Source: a virus. Taken from it: 44,999 nt of DNA. Under the pieces are notes generated by a model. The model was not told the origin of the DNA, ran no database searches, and worked only from the letters and a program-made list of their open reading frames with translations. The position numbers and the translations under genes were made by a program. Location: the IMG/VR virus record IMGVR_UViG_3300037882_002198, positions 1-44,999 of that record. The stretch is one strand, 5' to 3'. This document shows positions 21,684-37,599 of the stretch, piece by piece; position 1 is the stretch's first letter; each line of letters starts with the position of its first letter.

Positions 21684-21961
21684 GTAACCAGAAAAGTTAC
21701 CAAAGTAACTGCGACTACTTTTTGTCTAAATAGTTGATTTTATTAATAAATAGTAAAAGTTACCTAGTTACCTTGTTTTTAGGAGGATAAAGACCTCCGC
21801 CAGAAAAAAATAAAAAAATTCTAATTTATTATATATATATATATCTATATAGGGGGATATAAATATATTATTATAGGTAACTGGTAACTTATGGCGTAAC
21901 TATATGATATTATTGAACATTATTGGTTACCACTAAAGTTACCTACAGTTACCAAGTTACC
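21684..21961. other. Putative replication origin: GTTACC iterons and AT-rich core
   Basis: Nine exact GTTACC/GGTAAC hexamers occur at 21696, 21759, 21767, 21876, 21883, 21926, 21938, 21948 and 21956, with further GTAAC relatives at 21684, 21705 and 21896. They flank an AT-rich core with a TATATATATATAT run (about 21811-21870). The region lies between two convergent operons, downstream of the helicase-type ATPase gene, and carries no gene. Clustered iterons beside a meltable AT-rich segment are the classic look of an origin bound by an initiator. The alternative is a centre for a repressor or transcription control. Confidence 0.55.
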
Positions 21962-21963
21962 AC

Positions 21964-21999
21964 CAAAATAAAAACCCCCGATCCACCGGACCGAGGGTT
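21964..21999 (-). terminator. Intrinsic terminator for the primase-helicase operon
   Basis: On the minus strand a 12-bp stem (AACCCTCGGTCC/GGATCGGGGGTT, two G-U pairs) with loop GGT is followed by TTTTTATTTT. It lies 25 bases after the stop of the ATPase gene (22025) and before the iteron region, so it isolates the origin-like DNA from leftward transcription. Confidence 0.8.
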
Positions 22000-22024
22000 C
22001 AACTAACCAACCTAAGTCGCATTA

Positions 22025-23314
22025 TTAAAAAGATTCTTCCCCAACAGTAACCGAAACGACGACCCCTTTTTTGGAGTCACCATCAATCTTAGCAGCAGTT
22101 ATTTTGGCGCCATCAAGTCGCGCTAGGGATTTAACCCAAGATTTATCCCAGGCCGTGCCTTTGAAGTGTTTTTCAAGGTTTGGATTTGCATAAGGTACGA
22201 ACAATTTATCTTTAATAATTTTCATTTCAAACCCACCGAGCCATTTATTTTTAGTTTCTCTGGCTTCTTTGGATTTGATGACTTGCCTAAGGAGCATATT
22301 TTGAGTGTGAGATGGATCAAGTTTCCCTATATCAAAGGCCATGAGTCGTTCTAGGCATTGTCCGGCGTCTGAGTCATCACTAAGGCTTCCGTCGATAGAT
22401 TCGGGGGTTTTGTCTTTCCAGTATGATTTGAGTCGGGCTATGAGGCCGTAGGCGGTATCTGTGGGTTCGGAGGCGAACTTGTTGTCGGTTATGAAGAGTT
22501 CGGTGTCTTTGATTCTAGGTAGGTTTTGGAAGTCATCGGTGTCTAGGTAGGTTTTTAGTCCTCCGAGGAGGGTTCCGTATTGTTGCGCAGTACGGGAGTC
22601 GGTGAAATCTTGGAGGAGGGCTGTCATACAACGTATGTCTTGCTCCATTTTGAAGATCATAAGGGCGTTTAAGGGTCTAGAGCCTTGGTCGGTGTCTTCG
22701 CCTTGGAGCATCCACTCTTTGAGATCAAAGGCGGTTTTCGGGTTAATGACGGCTCTGATATCGGGTTCTAGTTCACTCCACTTTGAGGTGCGGTTTCGTT
22801 TCGACAGTTCGAGGACTGTGAAGCGGGTAGCGTCGGCCTCGCTGAAAGTGGGGAGGTTTATACCTGCGATAAGTCCAGAAAAACAAGCTGTATAAGACAA
22901 ATGCTTCCCCGAGGGTGTGCCCTTAACAACTTCCCCGGCACTACTAGCCAATCTAAAGAGTTTCACGATATTGTAAAAAGCTTTAGGGTCTAGGTTATTA
23001 GTGTCGATTTCATCGAGGATCACGGGAACAGCGTCATATTTTAGGCGCTGGCGGAGCCCCGCCTCTGTAGTCCCTTCCAGCAATAAAGGCACATGCGGTC
23101 TTAAGATTTCGTGAATAAGGTTAATTAAAGTAGTCTTTCCAGCCCCCGCCTCAGCGGTGATAGCAAGATGAGGTCTCCACTCTAAGAGTCCAGAGAACGG
23201 AGATACAATCATCCAACCGAGTAGGAGTTCGTGTTCGAAGGGGTGATTGAAGGCGAACTTTTGGAGGGTGGGTTTTAGGGCTGCTAGATTTGGGGTGAAG
23301 TATTTAGTTTTCAT
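22025..23314 (-). CDS. Primase-type P-loop ATPase/helicase
   Basis: A 429-residue protein. A P-loop (AEAGAGKTT, residues 54-62) is followed by Walker B with acidic pair (PVILDEID, about 97-104). The lead 'GWMIVSPFSGLLEWRPHLAIT' and the motif 'GTTEAGLRQRLKYDAVPVILDEID' match the helicase halves of phage and plasmid primase-helicases (DUF927-like), which normally follow a Toprim or AEP primase in the same chain. The primase here is a separate gene at 27526-28899. It probably unwinds DNA at the fork or origin. Its ATG overlaps the upstream stop by ATGA. Base composition looks more GC-rich than the adjacent small genes. Confidence 0.75.
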   Translation of the reverse strand: MKTKYFTPNLAALKPTLQKFAFNHPFEHELLLGWMIVSPFSGLLEWRPHLAITAEAGAGKTTLINLIHEILRPHVPLLLEGTTEAGLRQRLKYDAVPVILDEIDTNNLDPKAFYNIVKLFRLASSAGEVVKGTPSGKHLSYTACFSGLIAGINLPTFSEADATRFTVLELSKRNRTSKWSELEPDIRAVINPKTAFDLKEWMLQGEDTDQGSRPLNALMIFKMEQDIRCMTALLQDFTDSRTAQQYGTLLGGLKTYLDTDDFQNLPRIKDTELFITDNKFASEPTDTAYGLIARLKSYWKDKTPESIDGSLSDDSDAGQCLERLMAFDIGKLDPSHTQNMLLRQVIKSKEARETKNKWLGGFEMKIIKDKLFVPYANPNLEKHFKGTAWDKSWVKSLARLDGAKITAAKIDGDSKKGVVVSVTVGEESF

Positions 23315-24128: not shown

Positions 24129-24440
24129 TCATAAGTTACCTTTCAGTTTTAACGATTCAGAGTGTTCGTTCATCATTTTCATATTTAACATTCTAATTTG
24201 TGATTCTAGTTCTTTAATTTTATCTTGTGATTCTTTATAAGCTGCATATTCTATGACGTGGACATCAATGTTATTACCGCCGCCCGACAATTGAACAGGC
24301 TTTTGAGATAAAACAGCAAGAGGACTTTCTATTGAGCCGTGCATACCATCATAATATATCCAATATTCTTTCATAATGCTTCCTTTAATTCTTTCATCAT
24401 TTAATTCCCCTTTTATTTTAAGAACAATTGATTTAGTCAT
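24129..24440 (-). CDS. Hypothetical protein
   Basis: A 103-residue product with an ATGA overlap to the gene upstream. A second in-frame ATG (residue 23, MKEYWIYYDG) has AAGGA eight bases upstream and may be the real start, giving about 81 residues. The middle is beta-like (GSIESPLAVLSQKP) and the C-terminus a coiled coil (KESQDKIKELESQIRMLNMKMM). Function unknown. Confidence 0.55.
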   Translation of the reverse strand: MTKSIVLKIKGELNDERIKGSIMKEYWIYYDGMHGSIESPLAVLSQKPVQLSGGGNNIDVHVIEYAAYKESQDKIKELESQIRMLNMKMMNEHSESLKLKGNL

Positions 24441-25120
24441 TTACAAGCCCTGATCAACTCTAGAATTTTATTTGCGTGGTTCTGAAATGCTGCTGACCTT
24501 GTTGACTCTGCTGACCTTGCTGCTGACTCTGCTGACCATACTGCTGACTCTGCTGCTGACCTTGTTGACTCTGCTGACCTTGCTGCTGACTCTGCTGCTG
24601 ACTCTGCTGACCATACTGCTGACCTTGCTGCTGACCTTGCTGCTGACTCTGCTGCTGAAATTTTATCTGCATCGCATGATTCTTGAGCTTCAATCATCTG
24701 TAGTATTGCGGCTTCAACCAAATCAATCGCTTTTTTTACTTCAGGATTTTTTTCTACATTGTAAACACAAGACCTGATTGATTTTAAATTCTCATTCATT
24801 AAATATATTATAAATGGCTTTTTTATATTTTCTAAATCAGAACCTAAATTAATAGCTTCTAGAAATTGAACAGGCCACTTTTTAGCTAAATCGTTTGGTA
24901 AGTTTTCAAATATAGTGTCTTCTAGTCTTGCTAACCACTCAGGAACACCAAGCTCTGTTTCATAAGCTTTGTGATTGTCAGATTCAATCGTGCAACCAAC
25001 CGCACAACCCTTTCCGTTTTCCCAATATTTACCTTTTATAAAATTATCTGCCTTGGCATGAGCGTAAATTCTATCTAAATATTTTTTCTGGATATTTACA
25101 TCGTTGTGAAATGCTTTCAT
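24437..25120 (-). CDS. Phage protein with AAxSA repeat tail
   Basis: A 227-residue protein. The N-terminal 150 residues contain the conserved-looking blocks KYLDRIYAHAKADNFIKGKYW, GKGCAVGCT and PEWLARLEDTIFENLPN, which I recognise from many uncharacterised phage proteins. Residues about 155-212 are an Ala/Ser-rich repeat (SAAESAARSAVWSAES) followed by a short conserved end (FQNHANKILELIRACK). The repeat is encoded by nearly tandem DNA (24490-24656) with a 63-bp period and may vary in length by slippage. GGAG and AAGG sites precede the ATG. Function unknown. Confidence 0.7.
   Translation of the reverse strand: MKAFHNDVNIQKKYLDRIYAHAKADNFIKGKYWENGKGCAVGCTIESDNHKAYETELGVPEWLARLEDTIFENLPNDLAKKWPVQFLEAINLGSDLENIKKPFIIYLMNENLKSIRSCVYNVEKNPEVKKAIDLVEAAILQMIEAQESCDADKISAAESAARSAARSAVWSAESAAESAARSAESTRSAAESAVWSAESAARSAESTRSAAFQNHANKILELIRACK
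24490..24656. repeat. CTG-rich tandem repeat within a gene
   Basis: About 165 bases made of CTGCTGACC/CTGCTGACT-type units, with a clear second-order period of 63 bases (for example the same 11-base word at 24497 and 24560). It encodes the Ala/Ser repeat of the overlapping leftward gene (21 residues per long unit). Open frames on the other strand (Leu/Thr) and in another minus frame (Gln/Ser) are shadows of it. Confidence 0.85.
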
Positions 25121-27525: not shown

Positions 27526-28899
27526 TTATTTAGCTGCTATTCTTGTGGTTGGATCGTAATAGAAAGCAGATTTTACATCACTTATATCTTTAACTGATTT
27601 TTTTTCCAAATGGTTTAGACTGAGTCCTTTATGTTTGATAATCTTTTCAGAGTCGTGAAAATATCCCAAGCCCCGCATTTTATTATTCTCAAAAATTCCT
27701 TGTTTTTGACACTCACGAATTAGTTTATCTTTAGCGAGTGTATAATTTACTTGGCCTTTTTCGTTAGAGTATTTCTCAGCCCAATAATGATACGAGGCGA
27801 GCTTTAACATATCGGGTTCGGTAAATTCTGAAAGAGTTATAATTTGCGGGGCTTTATTGGTCGTAAAGAAGTAGTTTTTATGATTATACCCCAGTGAGTA
27901 GATAGATGTAGGGCGGTTAATTTTAATTTCTTTAATTTGGAGGGCGACCGCAAGTAAATTTTCCAGACAGAGGAGATCATTAAAATCTGTAGGTTTTCCG
28001 GTTGTATCGAGTCCTGAAAAATTTGGTAATCCATACGCCCCGCCGTCAACTCTGGAAACAACGTGAGAGGCAACTCGGTGTCCTGTATTTTCTTGATTTG
28101 GCCTCCAACAATCGTCATCAGCACAAATGATGTATGAAAGTTTGTCGAATCGGTCATGCAAACTCCTTACTACATGTTCTATATTTGTAGCGGAAATTGC
28201 AGCAACAACAGTATATTTCTGGTCTAAAGCCAAGAAGACTGTTAGAGCTGTGGCAAAACCTTCACAAACATAAACCAGATTATCAGTAAGAACGTCGAAA
28301 GAACTATGAGTGTCAAAGAGAGGGTGAAAACATCCCTCAAGGCGTCCGCCAGTAAGGACTTGTTTTTCACCGGCCTCGGTAATTGACTGGTAATTCCAGA
28401 GTGTTCCGTCTGCCGAGTAGAAAGGTATGATAACATCTCGGCCTCCGAGTAAATTCTGTCTAAACCGGATATTCGGTTTTTGATTTCGTTCTTGGCAAAG
28501 TCCACTAAGTCCCTTTCGACGTAGATATTCGTTAGTCCAGCTATTGTTATCAGGGAGATTAATTTTTCCAAACTCTTCGGAGGCGTAGTCTTTACACTCG
28601 TTTTGTTTTCGTAGTTTTTCTTTTTGGAGTTCTTCGGTTTGTAGGTCGATTTTACTTTGTACATCTTTTAATTCTCCCTTAGTTAGTTGTTCCGCCCCGA
28701 ACCTTCCTGTAAATTTTTCTCCGGATCTGAAATTATACACAGTTAAAATAGTTACGGCTTTGTCTTTATAAGTGGTGACAGAGAAAATATAAGAGCCTTT
28801 GAAATTGTTATCTTCTAATTTATGCCACTGGCCGGAGGCTTTACCTAAATCAATAGGTGGTAGCTTATGTTCATCTATAAATTTCAAAATATCATTCAT
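27526..28899 (-). CDS. Toprim-domain DNA primase
   Basis: A 457-residue protein from the ATG at 28899, which has AGGGG just upstream; an in-frame TTG at 28983 is rejected. The Toprim catalytic region is clear: VYVCEGFATAL (conserved Glu about residue 213), SYIICADDD (about 255-263) and GKPTDFNDL (about 300). The C-terminal 90 residues (TEPDMLKLASYHYWAEKYSNEKGQVNYTLAKDKLIREC) look like the start of a primase-helicase linker. The helicase half is absent and found as a separate gene at 22025-23314, with about 4.2 kb of small genes between. No N-terminal zinc finger is visible. It should make primers for the polymerase. Confidence 0.8.
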   Translation of the reverse strand: MNDILKFIDEHKLPPIDLGKASGQWHKLEDNNFKGSYIFSVTTYKDKAVTILTVYNFRSGEKFTGRFGAEQLTKGELKDVQSKIDLQTEELQKEKLRKQNECKDYASEEFGKINLPDNNSWTNEYLRRKGLSGLCQERNQKPNIRFRQNLLGGRDVIIPFYSADGTLWNYQSITEAGEKQVLTGGRLEGCFHPLFDTHSSFDVLTDNLVYVCEGFATALTVFLALDQKYTVVAAISATNIEHVVRSLHDRFDKLSYIICADDDCWRPNQENTGHRVASHVVSRVDGGAYGLPNFSGLDTTGKPTDFNDLLCLENLLAVALQIKEIKINRPTSIYSLGYNHKNYFFTTNKAPQIITLSEFTEPDMLKLASYHYWAEKYSNEKGQVNYTLAKDKLIRECQKQGIFENNKMRGLGYFHDSEKIIKHKGLSLNHLEKKSVKDISDVKSAFYYDPTTRIAAK

Positions 28900-29004
28900 T
28901 TTATCCCCTAAAAATGGTGCTGCTAAAGAGGGTGCGCTGTATATCCCCGACAACGGGGGATAACCGTTATCATCTTTTTTCAAGATCAGTGCAGCGTTTG
29001 TTAG

Positions 29005-35541: not shown

Positions 35542-35680
35542 ACCTACAAAAAACATGTACGTCAGACTTACAAAAGAGAACTATAACTTTGTAGTGCGTA
35601 ATGCAAAAGAGCAGGGTCTTTCGTTAAATAAATGTTTTAATCAACTTATTAAAGCAAAAAGAGAATCACCGTGGTCGTAG
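35525..35680 (+). CDS. Ribbon-helix-helix DNA-binding protein (51 aa)
   Basis: A 51-residue product. MYVRLT is a short strand, ENYNFVVRNAKEQGL the first helix and SLNKCFNQLIKAKRE the second: the Arc/CopG ribbon-helix-helix pattern, which binds palindromic operators as dimers. It overlaps the exonuclease gene by 17 bases and the polymerase start by 10 bases. It is a good candidate for the protein that binds the TAGTYGCA palindromes. Confidence 0.65.
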   Translation: MKQKPKPTKNMYVRLTKENYNFVVRNAKEQGLSLNKCFNQLIKAKRESPWS

Positions 35681-37599
35681 CTCTAGAAAGCATAGACGCT
35701 ATCTTAAATAACTTATCGAGCGTTATTTCGCTCGATACAGAGACTACAGGGTTAAACCCGTATAAAGATAGCGAACTTTTTTCGATAATTCTAGCTGACG
35801 AAAGGGGTGAGTATTACTTTAACTTTAATAAGCATATGGATTGTTTTGGTAAACTATCAGATCACTGTTTACCTAGATCTATTATTAAAGATAAAATAAT
35901 TCCCACTATCGAAAAAGCTAGTTTGTTATTTTTAGCTAATGCTAAATTCGATATGGCTATTGTTGAAAAAGAGGGAGTTGTTAACTGGCCCCCGATTCAT
36001 GACGACATCGTAGCACATAGACTTTTAAATAACGATCTCCCAAAAGTTTCTTTAGAAATAGCGGCCACTCATTACGGCTATAAAAAATCAGAAGCCGTCG
36101 AAGAGTTTATAGAAAAACATAAACTCTATGAAATAATTCAAAATCCAGCGAGAAAGAAAAAAGAAAAAAATAAATTTTTCTACAAAGTTCCTATGGATAT
36201 TATAGTGCCGTATGCATTAACAGATGCCCGTATTACTTTTGATATTGGCCTAAAACAACGGGCTCAGTTTAAAGATTTTTTTACTGTTTATGACAGGTTT
36301 AAAACAGACAACGTAGATCCTTATGTTATGGAGTCAGAATTAATTAAAGTATTATATAAAATGGAAAAGAGGGGAATTTATGTCAACAGAGAAGAGTGTT
36401 TTAAACGAGCAGCAAATCATCAGAGAAATTACGAGCTTGAATCGCGCAAGTTCCACGATCAAACAAGATCGACACTTATTGACTCTGCTAAAGTGCTTAG
36501 CCCTGTGTTCGCTAGAGCGGGCTTCACAGCTCCAAAAACGGAAAAAGAAAATGACTCCATTTCAGATGCATGGCTTGAGTCAGTCAAACACCCCTTGGCC
36601 GATTTAGTTAGAAACTATCGACACAACTACAAATTAGCTAACACTTTTTATAAAAACTATATATGGCACATAGATCAAAACTCAGTCCTTCATGCGAACA
36701 TAAATCAATCCGGCACAAGAACAGGAAGGATGTCTTACTCAAATCCGAATTTGCAACAAATCCCCGCCTCACCTGTACGCCAGATCCTTGTTCCGCCGCA
36801 GGGATATTGTTGTGTGAGTATAGACTGGGACCAACAAGAGTATCGAATGATGTTGGACTACGCCGAGGAAATGGAGCTTATCGACGAAGTAAAGCGGGGG
36901 CTTGATGTTCACACGGCTACCGCCAATTTGACGGGTGTTACCCGTAAGGAAGCAAAGACTTTAAATTTTTTATTGTTGTACGGGGGCGGGGTAGTAAAAC
37001 TTTGTCTTGAATTATTTCCAGTGACAGCAAGCGAGCCGGAGCTTTGGTATATTTGGAAAACATATAATGACTGGCAAATGAGTGATGCAGAAAAAAACTT
37101 TAAAGTCAGTGAAGAACTCTTTAAAATAAATCTGGATTTTTTATTAAAGGCAAGCGCGCTTAGAAAACAGTACTTTTCTAAGTTGCCGAAAGTCGAAGAA
37201 TTTATTGGGCTATGTAAAAGAACAGCGTTAGCTAGGGGATATATTAATTCATGGTCAGGACGAAGACTTAATTTTAAACCAGAGTTTTGTTATAAAGCGC
37301 CGAACGCATTGATTCAAGGCGGAGCCGCTGATGTAGCAAAGTATGCTATGATTAATATTGACAAAACACTTACAAATAAATTGTCATATATGGTAGCGCA
37401 GATACATGATGAGTTTTGGTTTTACATTCACGAGACGGAATTAAGTATTACTAAAGACTTGGTGCATATTATGGAAAATACATTTCCACATAAACACTTA
37501 AGTCTGACCTCATCTGTAGAATATTCATGGGAGAATTTCTACGATTTAAAGAAACTAGAACAAGGACAGTTAATTGAAAAAACCAGAGACAAAGTTTAA
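35671..37599 (+). CDS. polA: DNA polymerase I family (family A)
   Basis: A 642-residue polymerase with GTG start. N-terminal 3'-5' exonuclease: SLDTETTGLNP (about 19-29), ANAKFDMAIVE (about 90) and YALTDARITFD (about 180; DEDDy form). Polymerase: SGTRTGRMSYSNPNLQQIP (motif around 350), motif A VSIDWDQQEYRMM, motif B RKEAKTLNFLLLYG (with the Lys and Phe/Tyr positions) and motif C VAQIHDEFW. It is the main replication polymerase; no 5'-3' exonuclease domain is present. It starts inside the ribbon-helix-helix gene's end. Confidence 0.95.
   Translation: MVVALESIDAILNNLSSVISLDTETTGLNPYKDSELFSIILADERGEYYFNFNKHMDCFGKLSDHCLPRSIIKDKIIPTIEKASLLFLANAKFDMAIVEKEGVVNWPPIHDDIVAHRLLNNDLPKVSLEIAATHYGYKKSEAVEEFIEKHKLYEIIQNPARKKKEKNKFFYKVPMDIIVPYALTDARITFDIGLKQRAQFKDFFTVYDRFKTDNVDPYVMESELIKVLYKMEKRGIYVNREECFKRAANHQRNYELESRKFHDQTRSTLIDSAKVLSPVFARAGFTAPKTEKENDSISDAWLESVKHPLADLVRNYRHNYKLANTFYKNYIWHIDQNSVLHANINQSGTRTGRMSYSNPNLQQIPASPVRQILVPPQGYCCVSIDWDQQEYRMMLDYAEEMELIDEVKRGLDVHTATANLTGVTRKEAKTLNFLLLYGGGVVKLCLELFPVTASEPELWYIWKTYNDWQMSDAEKNFKVSEELFKINLDFLLKASALRKQYFSKLPKVEEFIGLCKRTALARGYINSWSGRRLNFKPEFCYKAPNALIQGGAADVAKYAMINIDKTLTNKLSYMVAQIHDEFWFYIHETELSITKDLVHIMENTFPHKHLSLTSSVEYSWENFYDLKKLEQGQLIEKTRDKV

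Follow-up and report, generated by a model that had tools for sequence, protein, structure and literature searches.

A probable phage replication origin of mirrored GTTACC hexamers directly behind an AAA+ helicase gene

Results

Replication genes of the window

The window, by which we mean the whole stretch of DNA analysed, is an entire IMG/VR record of 44,999 bp which encodes terminase, portal and tail genes and is therefore not a satellite lacking virion genes. An array of short repeats lies between two of its operons, which are convergent, directly 3' of the gene for a 429-aa helicase (22025-23314, minus strand; phrog_35358 / phrog_21086) that combines an AAA+ domain with a C-terminal winged-helix-like domain and that we propose as the initiator. 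PHROG 35358 itself carries the annotation DNA primase. The primase of the window is a separate gene (27526-28983, minus strand) for a 485-aa Toprim protein which matches phrog_2249 at 5e-43, placing it in the same primase family as P4 alpha, and which is related to the primase of Bdellovibrio phage phi1422. Primase and helicase are fused in phi1422 and most relatives, whereas in the window some small genes, together about 4 kb, stand between them. A family A DNA polymerase (35671-37599, plus strand) is presumed to extend from the origin considered below.

The AlphaFold model of the helicase (mean pLDDT 81.5) matched NrS-1, PriRep1, the SaPI5 primase-helicase, ASFV and the mpox/poxvirus E5/D5 helicases with low TM-scores (about 0.3), such that these matches place its fold and not its family; as modelled, it is a D5/SaPI-Rep-like AAA+ ring helicase by fold. 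A PDB sequence search with the helicase profile returned P-loop noise only. The C-terminal domain (residues 318-429) is modelled as three helices and a beta hairpin, and its best match is an oriT-binding accessory protein of pCW3 (E 0.02), which gives only a hint that this domain may bind DNA. The initial annotation had named the ATPase at 22025 as a possible binder of the hexamers, and it is still the best candidate for that role.

A hexamer array around the least stable DNA of the record

Nine hexamers that are exactly GTTACC or its complement GGTAAC had been noted within 21684-21961, with roughly 0.1 copies expected by chance; exact matching bears out the count, and the chance estimate is correct. 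On the plus strand GTTACC starts at 21696, 21759, 21767, 21926, 21938, 21948 and 21956, and on the minus strand at 21876 and 21883. Interspersed with these are additional GTTAC pentamers at 21684, 21705 and 21896, giving 12 cores in total. Over the entire window GTTACC occurs 16 times, which is not above chance (mean 15.6), yet nine of these copies fall in 278 bp, and the window holds no second GTTACC cluster. When the full record was simulated 150 times with an order-2 Markov model, the commonest four-letter hexamer reached 4 or 5 copies per 280 bp at most.

Only at 24490-24658, in a tandem repeat that is coding, does the window hold clearly denser hexamers, and the CAGCAG cluster found there, at 24490, was dismissed as an origin because the repeat is coding. 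The gene concerned (24437-25120, minus strand) belongs to the replication operon and specifies a 227-aa protein whose tandem repeat (24487-24658) encodes an alanine/serine/arginine-rich stretch (AARSAESAA...). Rfam and tRNA scans gave no matches.

Read in window orientation, the order of sites is − + −, then ++ (8 bp apart), a 103-bp core, −− with a half site −, and finally ++++. The left outer sites (21684-21710) comprise exact GTTAC cores at 21684 (−), 21696 (+, a full GTTACC) and 21705 (−), and are less regular than their counterparts in phi1422. The left inner pair, GTTACCtaGTTACC (21759-21772, plus strand), has an 8-bp spacing that recurs in phi1422 and most members of the family described below. 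The right inner sites, GGTAACtGGTAAC (7 bp apart) together with GTAAC at 21896 (21876-21901, minus strand), are inverted relative to the left inner pair. The right outer array (21926-21961, plus strand) contains four GTTACC copies at spacings of 12, 10 and 8 bp and lies nearest the helicase gene, with the first site of the array 64 bp beyond the stop of that gene. The suggestion that two clusters of differing orientation surround a core thus holds, with ++ on the left and −−(−) on the right.

The core itself (21773-21875) spans 103 bp of 80% A+T, and the AT-rich core of the initial annotation is likewise real. Within it, at 21815-21874, are the 60 bp with the lowest stability in the whole 45 kb (−54.8, against a mean of −76.9 and an sd of 5.4), and the TATATATA stretch falls inside them. 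It is likely that this core is the unwinding element. A small inverted repeat, GGAGG...CCTCC (21782-21799), sits within the core beside the left inner pair. Between the helicase gene and the array there is an intrinsic terminator of the leftward replication operon (21972-22000, minus strand), a 13-bp stem with a T run (z = −3.1), confirming the leftward terminator previously placed at 21964-21999. GC skew, which had been put forward as a check on the origin, was dropped as evidence because it follows the coding strand and decides nothing here.

The layout recurs behind related helicases

Relatives of the helicase were drawn from IMG/VR, GTDB genomes, phages and plasmids, with profile searches yielding 80 viral and 80 bacterial loci and then about 80 further viral loci, and a search blind to gene position picked out the strongest cluster of hexamers at each locus. 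Strong clusters lay between −60 and +500 of the helicase stop in 85 of 102 loci of the first set (6.5% expected, p 4e-83) and at the helicase 3' end in 46 of 54 loci of a second, partly overlapping set (6-7% expected, p 2e-45); the two sets share some contigs and contain close relatives, so these p values overstate independence. The core measures 60-130 bp (median 98) in 49 of the 61 non-redundant arrays, and all but one of these 49 (48/49, p 2e-13) have inverted flanking sites, with a core A+T content of 58% compared with 46% for the surroundings. Across 70 non-redundant loci the least stable 40 bp of the core has a median rank of 0.17% of the locus. The geometry of the family is one of paired sites 7-9 bp apart, an AT-rich core of about 100 bp, an inverted pair, outer sites and a 42-46 bp step, and the hexamer word varies within it (GTTACA, CGTTAC, GTAAGA, GTTAGA, GGGACA and CGTTCC being common). 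The window has the phrog_35358 helicase, the 3' array, inverted inner pairs at 7-9 bp and a core of 60-130 bp. We note that the class of phrog_35358 helicases with downstream mirror iterons is a grouping made in this analysis.

The geometry is also seen in phi1422, whose helicase is only 26% identical to that of the window. Twelve GTTACC copies occupy 300 bp around an AT-rich core, the first of them 11 bp past the primase-helicase gene. In the sense of the helicase (GTTACC as +), they read +++−, ++, an 83-bp core, −− and +−−−, which is an exact mirror. The paper describing phi1422 makes no mention of an origin at this site.

Database searches found no close relative of the window phage: an INPHARED nucleotide search with the locus gave no match, and an IMG/VR scan with the single helicase protein gave no relative. 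The initial annotation held that absence of the repeats from close relatives would refute an origin. Comparison went the opposite way, in that the same or a replaced hexamer occupies the same place with the same geometry, albeit in relatives that are not close ones. The array is missing within about 5 kb of the helicase in several phage relatives of 80-95 kb. In one group of loci, mostly 80-95 kb phages, and in five further loci, it is absent nearby or displaced by 1.8-4.5 kb, often with GGTTAC clusters. The closest DNA polymerase relative of the window and four other genomes have neither the helicase nor GTTACC pairs, and so seem to use a different initiation module.

Plasmids of Arsenophonus nasoniae

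Plasmids of Arsenophonus nasoniae, 8-12 kb in length, carry the same module; a protelomerase is annotated on most of them, and they have few genes beyond those for the helicase, an HTH protein and an Rpn nuclease. On each of them the array lies right behind the helicase gene, and the module is the only visible replicon. The layout opens with four sites set 12 bp from one another and a pair 8 bp apart; beyond the AT-rich core come a second pair and further outer sites, both inverted, with the far side slightly less regular in paPv13 and paNv_CH14. Although the helicases are about 72-76% identical to each other, their hexamers are GGTAAC in paPv15, GCTAAC in paPv13, CATTAC in paNv_CH14 and CAN18, and GGTTGT in CAN17. 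The arrays thus differ within both same-strain plasmid pairs, paPv13/paPv15 and paNv_CAN17/CAN18. Judging from these two pairs, differing hexamers in coresident plasmids may be what replicon compatibility would require.

Discussion

The initial annotation proposed 21684-21961 as an origin candidate, and comparison with relatives now strongly supports this, with initiation itself being inferred. As many phages and small linear plasmids show the same layout behind related helicases, often with another hexamer, the region is very probably where replication starts. We regard it as highly probable that it is the replication origin of the phage, with GTTACC acting as an iteron bound by the adjacent helicase (22025-23314). 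Recognition of the hexamer is probably achieved via the helicase C-terminal domain, which appears the most likely route. A partial Mantel scan for a helicase region whose divergence tracks that of the hexamer revealed no clear region.

This last result bears on the main alternative, in which the region still serves as an origin and a different small protein, from the phage or the host, recognises the hexamers and then brings in the helicase, in the manner of iteron plasmids or lambda O/P. The failure of the region-by-region test to pin hexamer specificity on the helicase would fit such a protein, as would the several small genes of no assigned function near the array and the HTH gene that is also present on the Arsenophonus plasmids. 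Against this, the array abuts the helicase gene in dozens of genomes, these relatives having been found by that gene, and a non-exhaustive search identified no other conserved neighbour. SaPI/PICI Rep and P4 alpha, moreover, bind their own iterons. We therefore consider a separate binder unlikely, whilst still giving it more weight than any of the other alternatives.

Comparison with P4 raises a second alternative, namely that the array is only the crr part of a two-site origin with the start site elsewhere. In P4 the crr iterons lie behind alpha, with the alpha terminator between the two in the same place as that of the window; they are short and inverted with 9- and 43-bp steps, the latter to be compared with 42-46 bp in the phrog_35358 family, and the phrog_2249 primase is common to the window and P4 alpha. 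P4 requires two distant sites, with ori apart from crr, whereas the window has a single GTTACC cluster, with a core less stable than any other DNA in the record, making a remote start site improbable. The P4 iterons also differ in being the 8-bp GGTGAACA, and the helicase domains appear to differ, with an hhalign probability of 15% between the window helicase and alpha.

Somewhat less probable again is a partition site, or centromere, by which an extrachromosomal prophage would be retained as cells divide. Centromeres also carry iteron-like arrays, and phi1422 and PY223 encode ParB-like proteins. However, the Arsenophonus plasmids have the array without annotated ParA/ParB, and those window proteins that were scanned include no member of the ParA/ParB family; the gene conserved beside the array encodes a helicase, and an origin requires just such a highly unstable core. 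A role as operator or in transcription control is the least credible of all, for whilst repressor operators can be repeated inverted sites, the array sits between convergent operons, neither of which has a promoter there, and promoter-like matches number one against 2.7 expected by chance.

If the region is indeed an origin read by the helicase, the arrangement of its sites suggests how it may work. The C-terminal winged-helix-like domain would seat helicase subunits on the paired sites flanking the AT-rich core, and, because the two sides are inverted, we propose that two helicase assemblies would face each other. These assemblies would melt the core, recruit the Toprim primase (27526-28983) and send out forks to either side, which the phage family A polymerase would extend. 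The inverted pairs are thus suggestive of bidirectional replication from two facing assemblies.

Amongst known systems, the closest in layout is the origin of the PICIs, which lies immediately past the 3' end of rep and has an AT-rich region between two sets of iterons; for EcCICFT073 the rep-ori segment maintains a plasmid and deletion of ori impairs this (PMC6092414). We located the EcCICFT073 origin in CFT073 as 11 GGTAGA copies in mirror order. In SaPI, EcCICFT073 and the window alike, the known or proposed origin follows a primase/helicase initiator directly, two iteron sets flank AT-rich DNA, the hexamers stand in mirror order and differ between elements, and the initiator is a ring-forming AAA+ protein by fold. 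The differences are that the present array is found in complete tailed phages and protelomerase plasmids, whereas PICIs are satellites; that the window helicase belongs to phrog_35358, a different PHROG, with only a P-loop sequence match to EcCICFT073 Rep; and that the core and pair spacing are unlike those of EcCICFT073. We class the window as probably working like a PICI pri-rep-ori or P4 crr/ori origin, and as a member of neither, its helicase family being that of neither PICIs nor P4. Contrary to what has been published, the layout is not confined to PICIs.

More distant parallels can also be drawn. At the SV40 T-antigen and papillomavirus E1 origins, two ring helicases assemble on inverted short sites near AT-rich DNA, in a different host and with a different replisome, and homology here was compared at the level of the AAA+ fold only. 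Origins of the RepA/RepE iteron plasmids share repeated initiator sites by an AT-rich region, but their iterons are direct and about 20 bp long, they include DnaA boxes, and their initiator is not a helicase. The open-access literature searched, in which absence is weak evidence, contained no description of GTTACC/GGTAAC origins and yielded no experiment on the helicase family of the window.

A broader reading is that these loci form a widespread class of origins, carried by tailed phages and by protelomerase plasmids, with a helicase family distinct from that of the PICIs and a mirror geometry that stays fixed (7-9 bp pair, a core near 100 bp, step of about 44 bp, outer sites), in which the freely swapped hexamer acts as a replicon identity code that lets sister replicons share a cell. 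The case for and against this proposal seems to us evenly balanced. To our knowledge, the origins of most tailed phages are not known, and the layout offers a sequence rule by which those across a large helicase family could be located from sequence alone. That complete phages and linear plasmids both carry it points to a sharing or exchange of replicon modules between satellites and phages, or to convergence on them. With hexamers that change while the geometry stays fixed, the switch of target by an initiator helicase and the compatibility of related replicons can both be put to direct test.

Two further groups of genomes merit mention. Some Cyanobium/Synechococcus genomes have several copies of the helicase each, many with an array, and these copies are probably integrated elements, prophages or satellites. 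Several A. nasoniae strains, at five of the loci collected, harbour multiple helicase plasmids; most of these have a protelomerase gene and some have one for a terminase small subunit, and they appear to be phage-plasmids that have undergone reduction and whose origins differ within a single cell.
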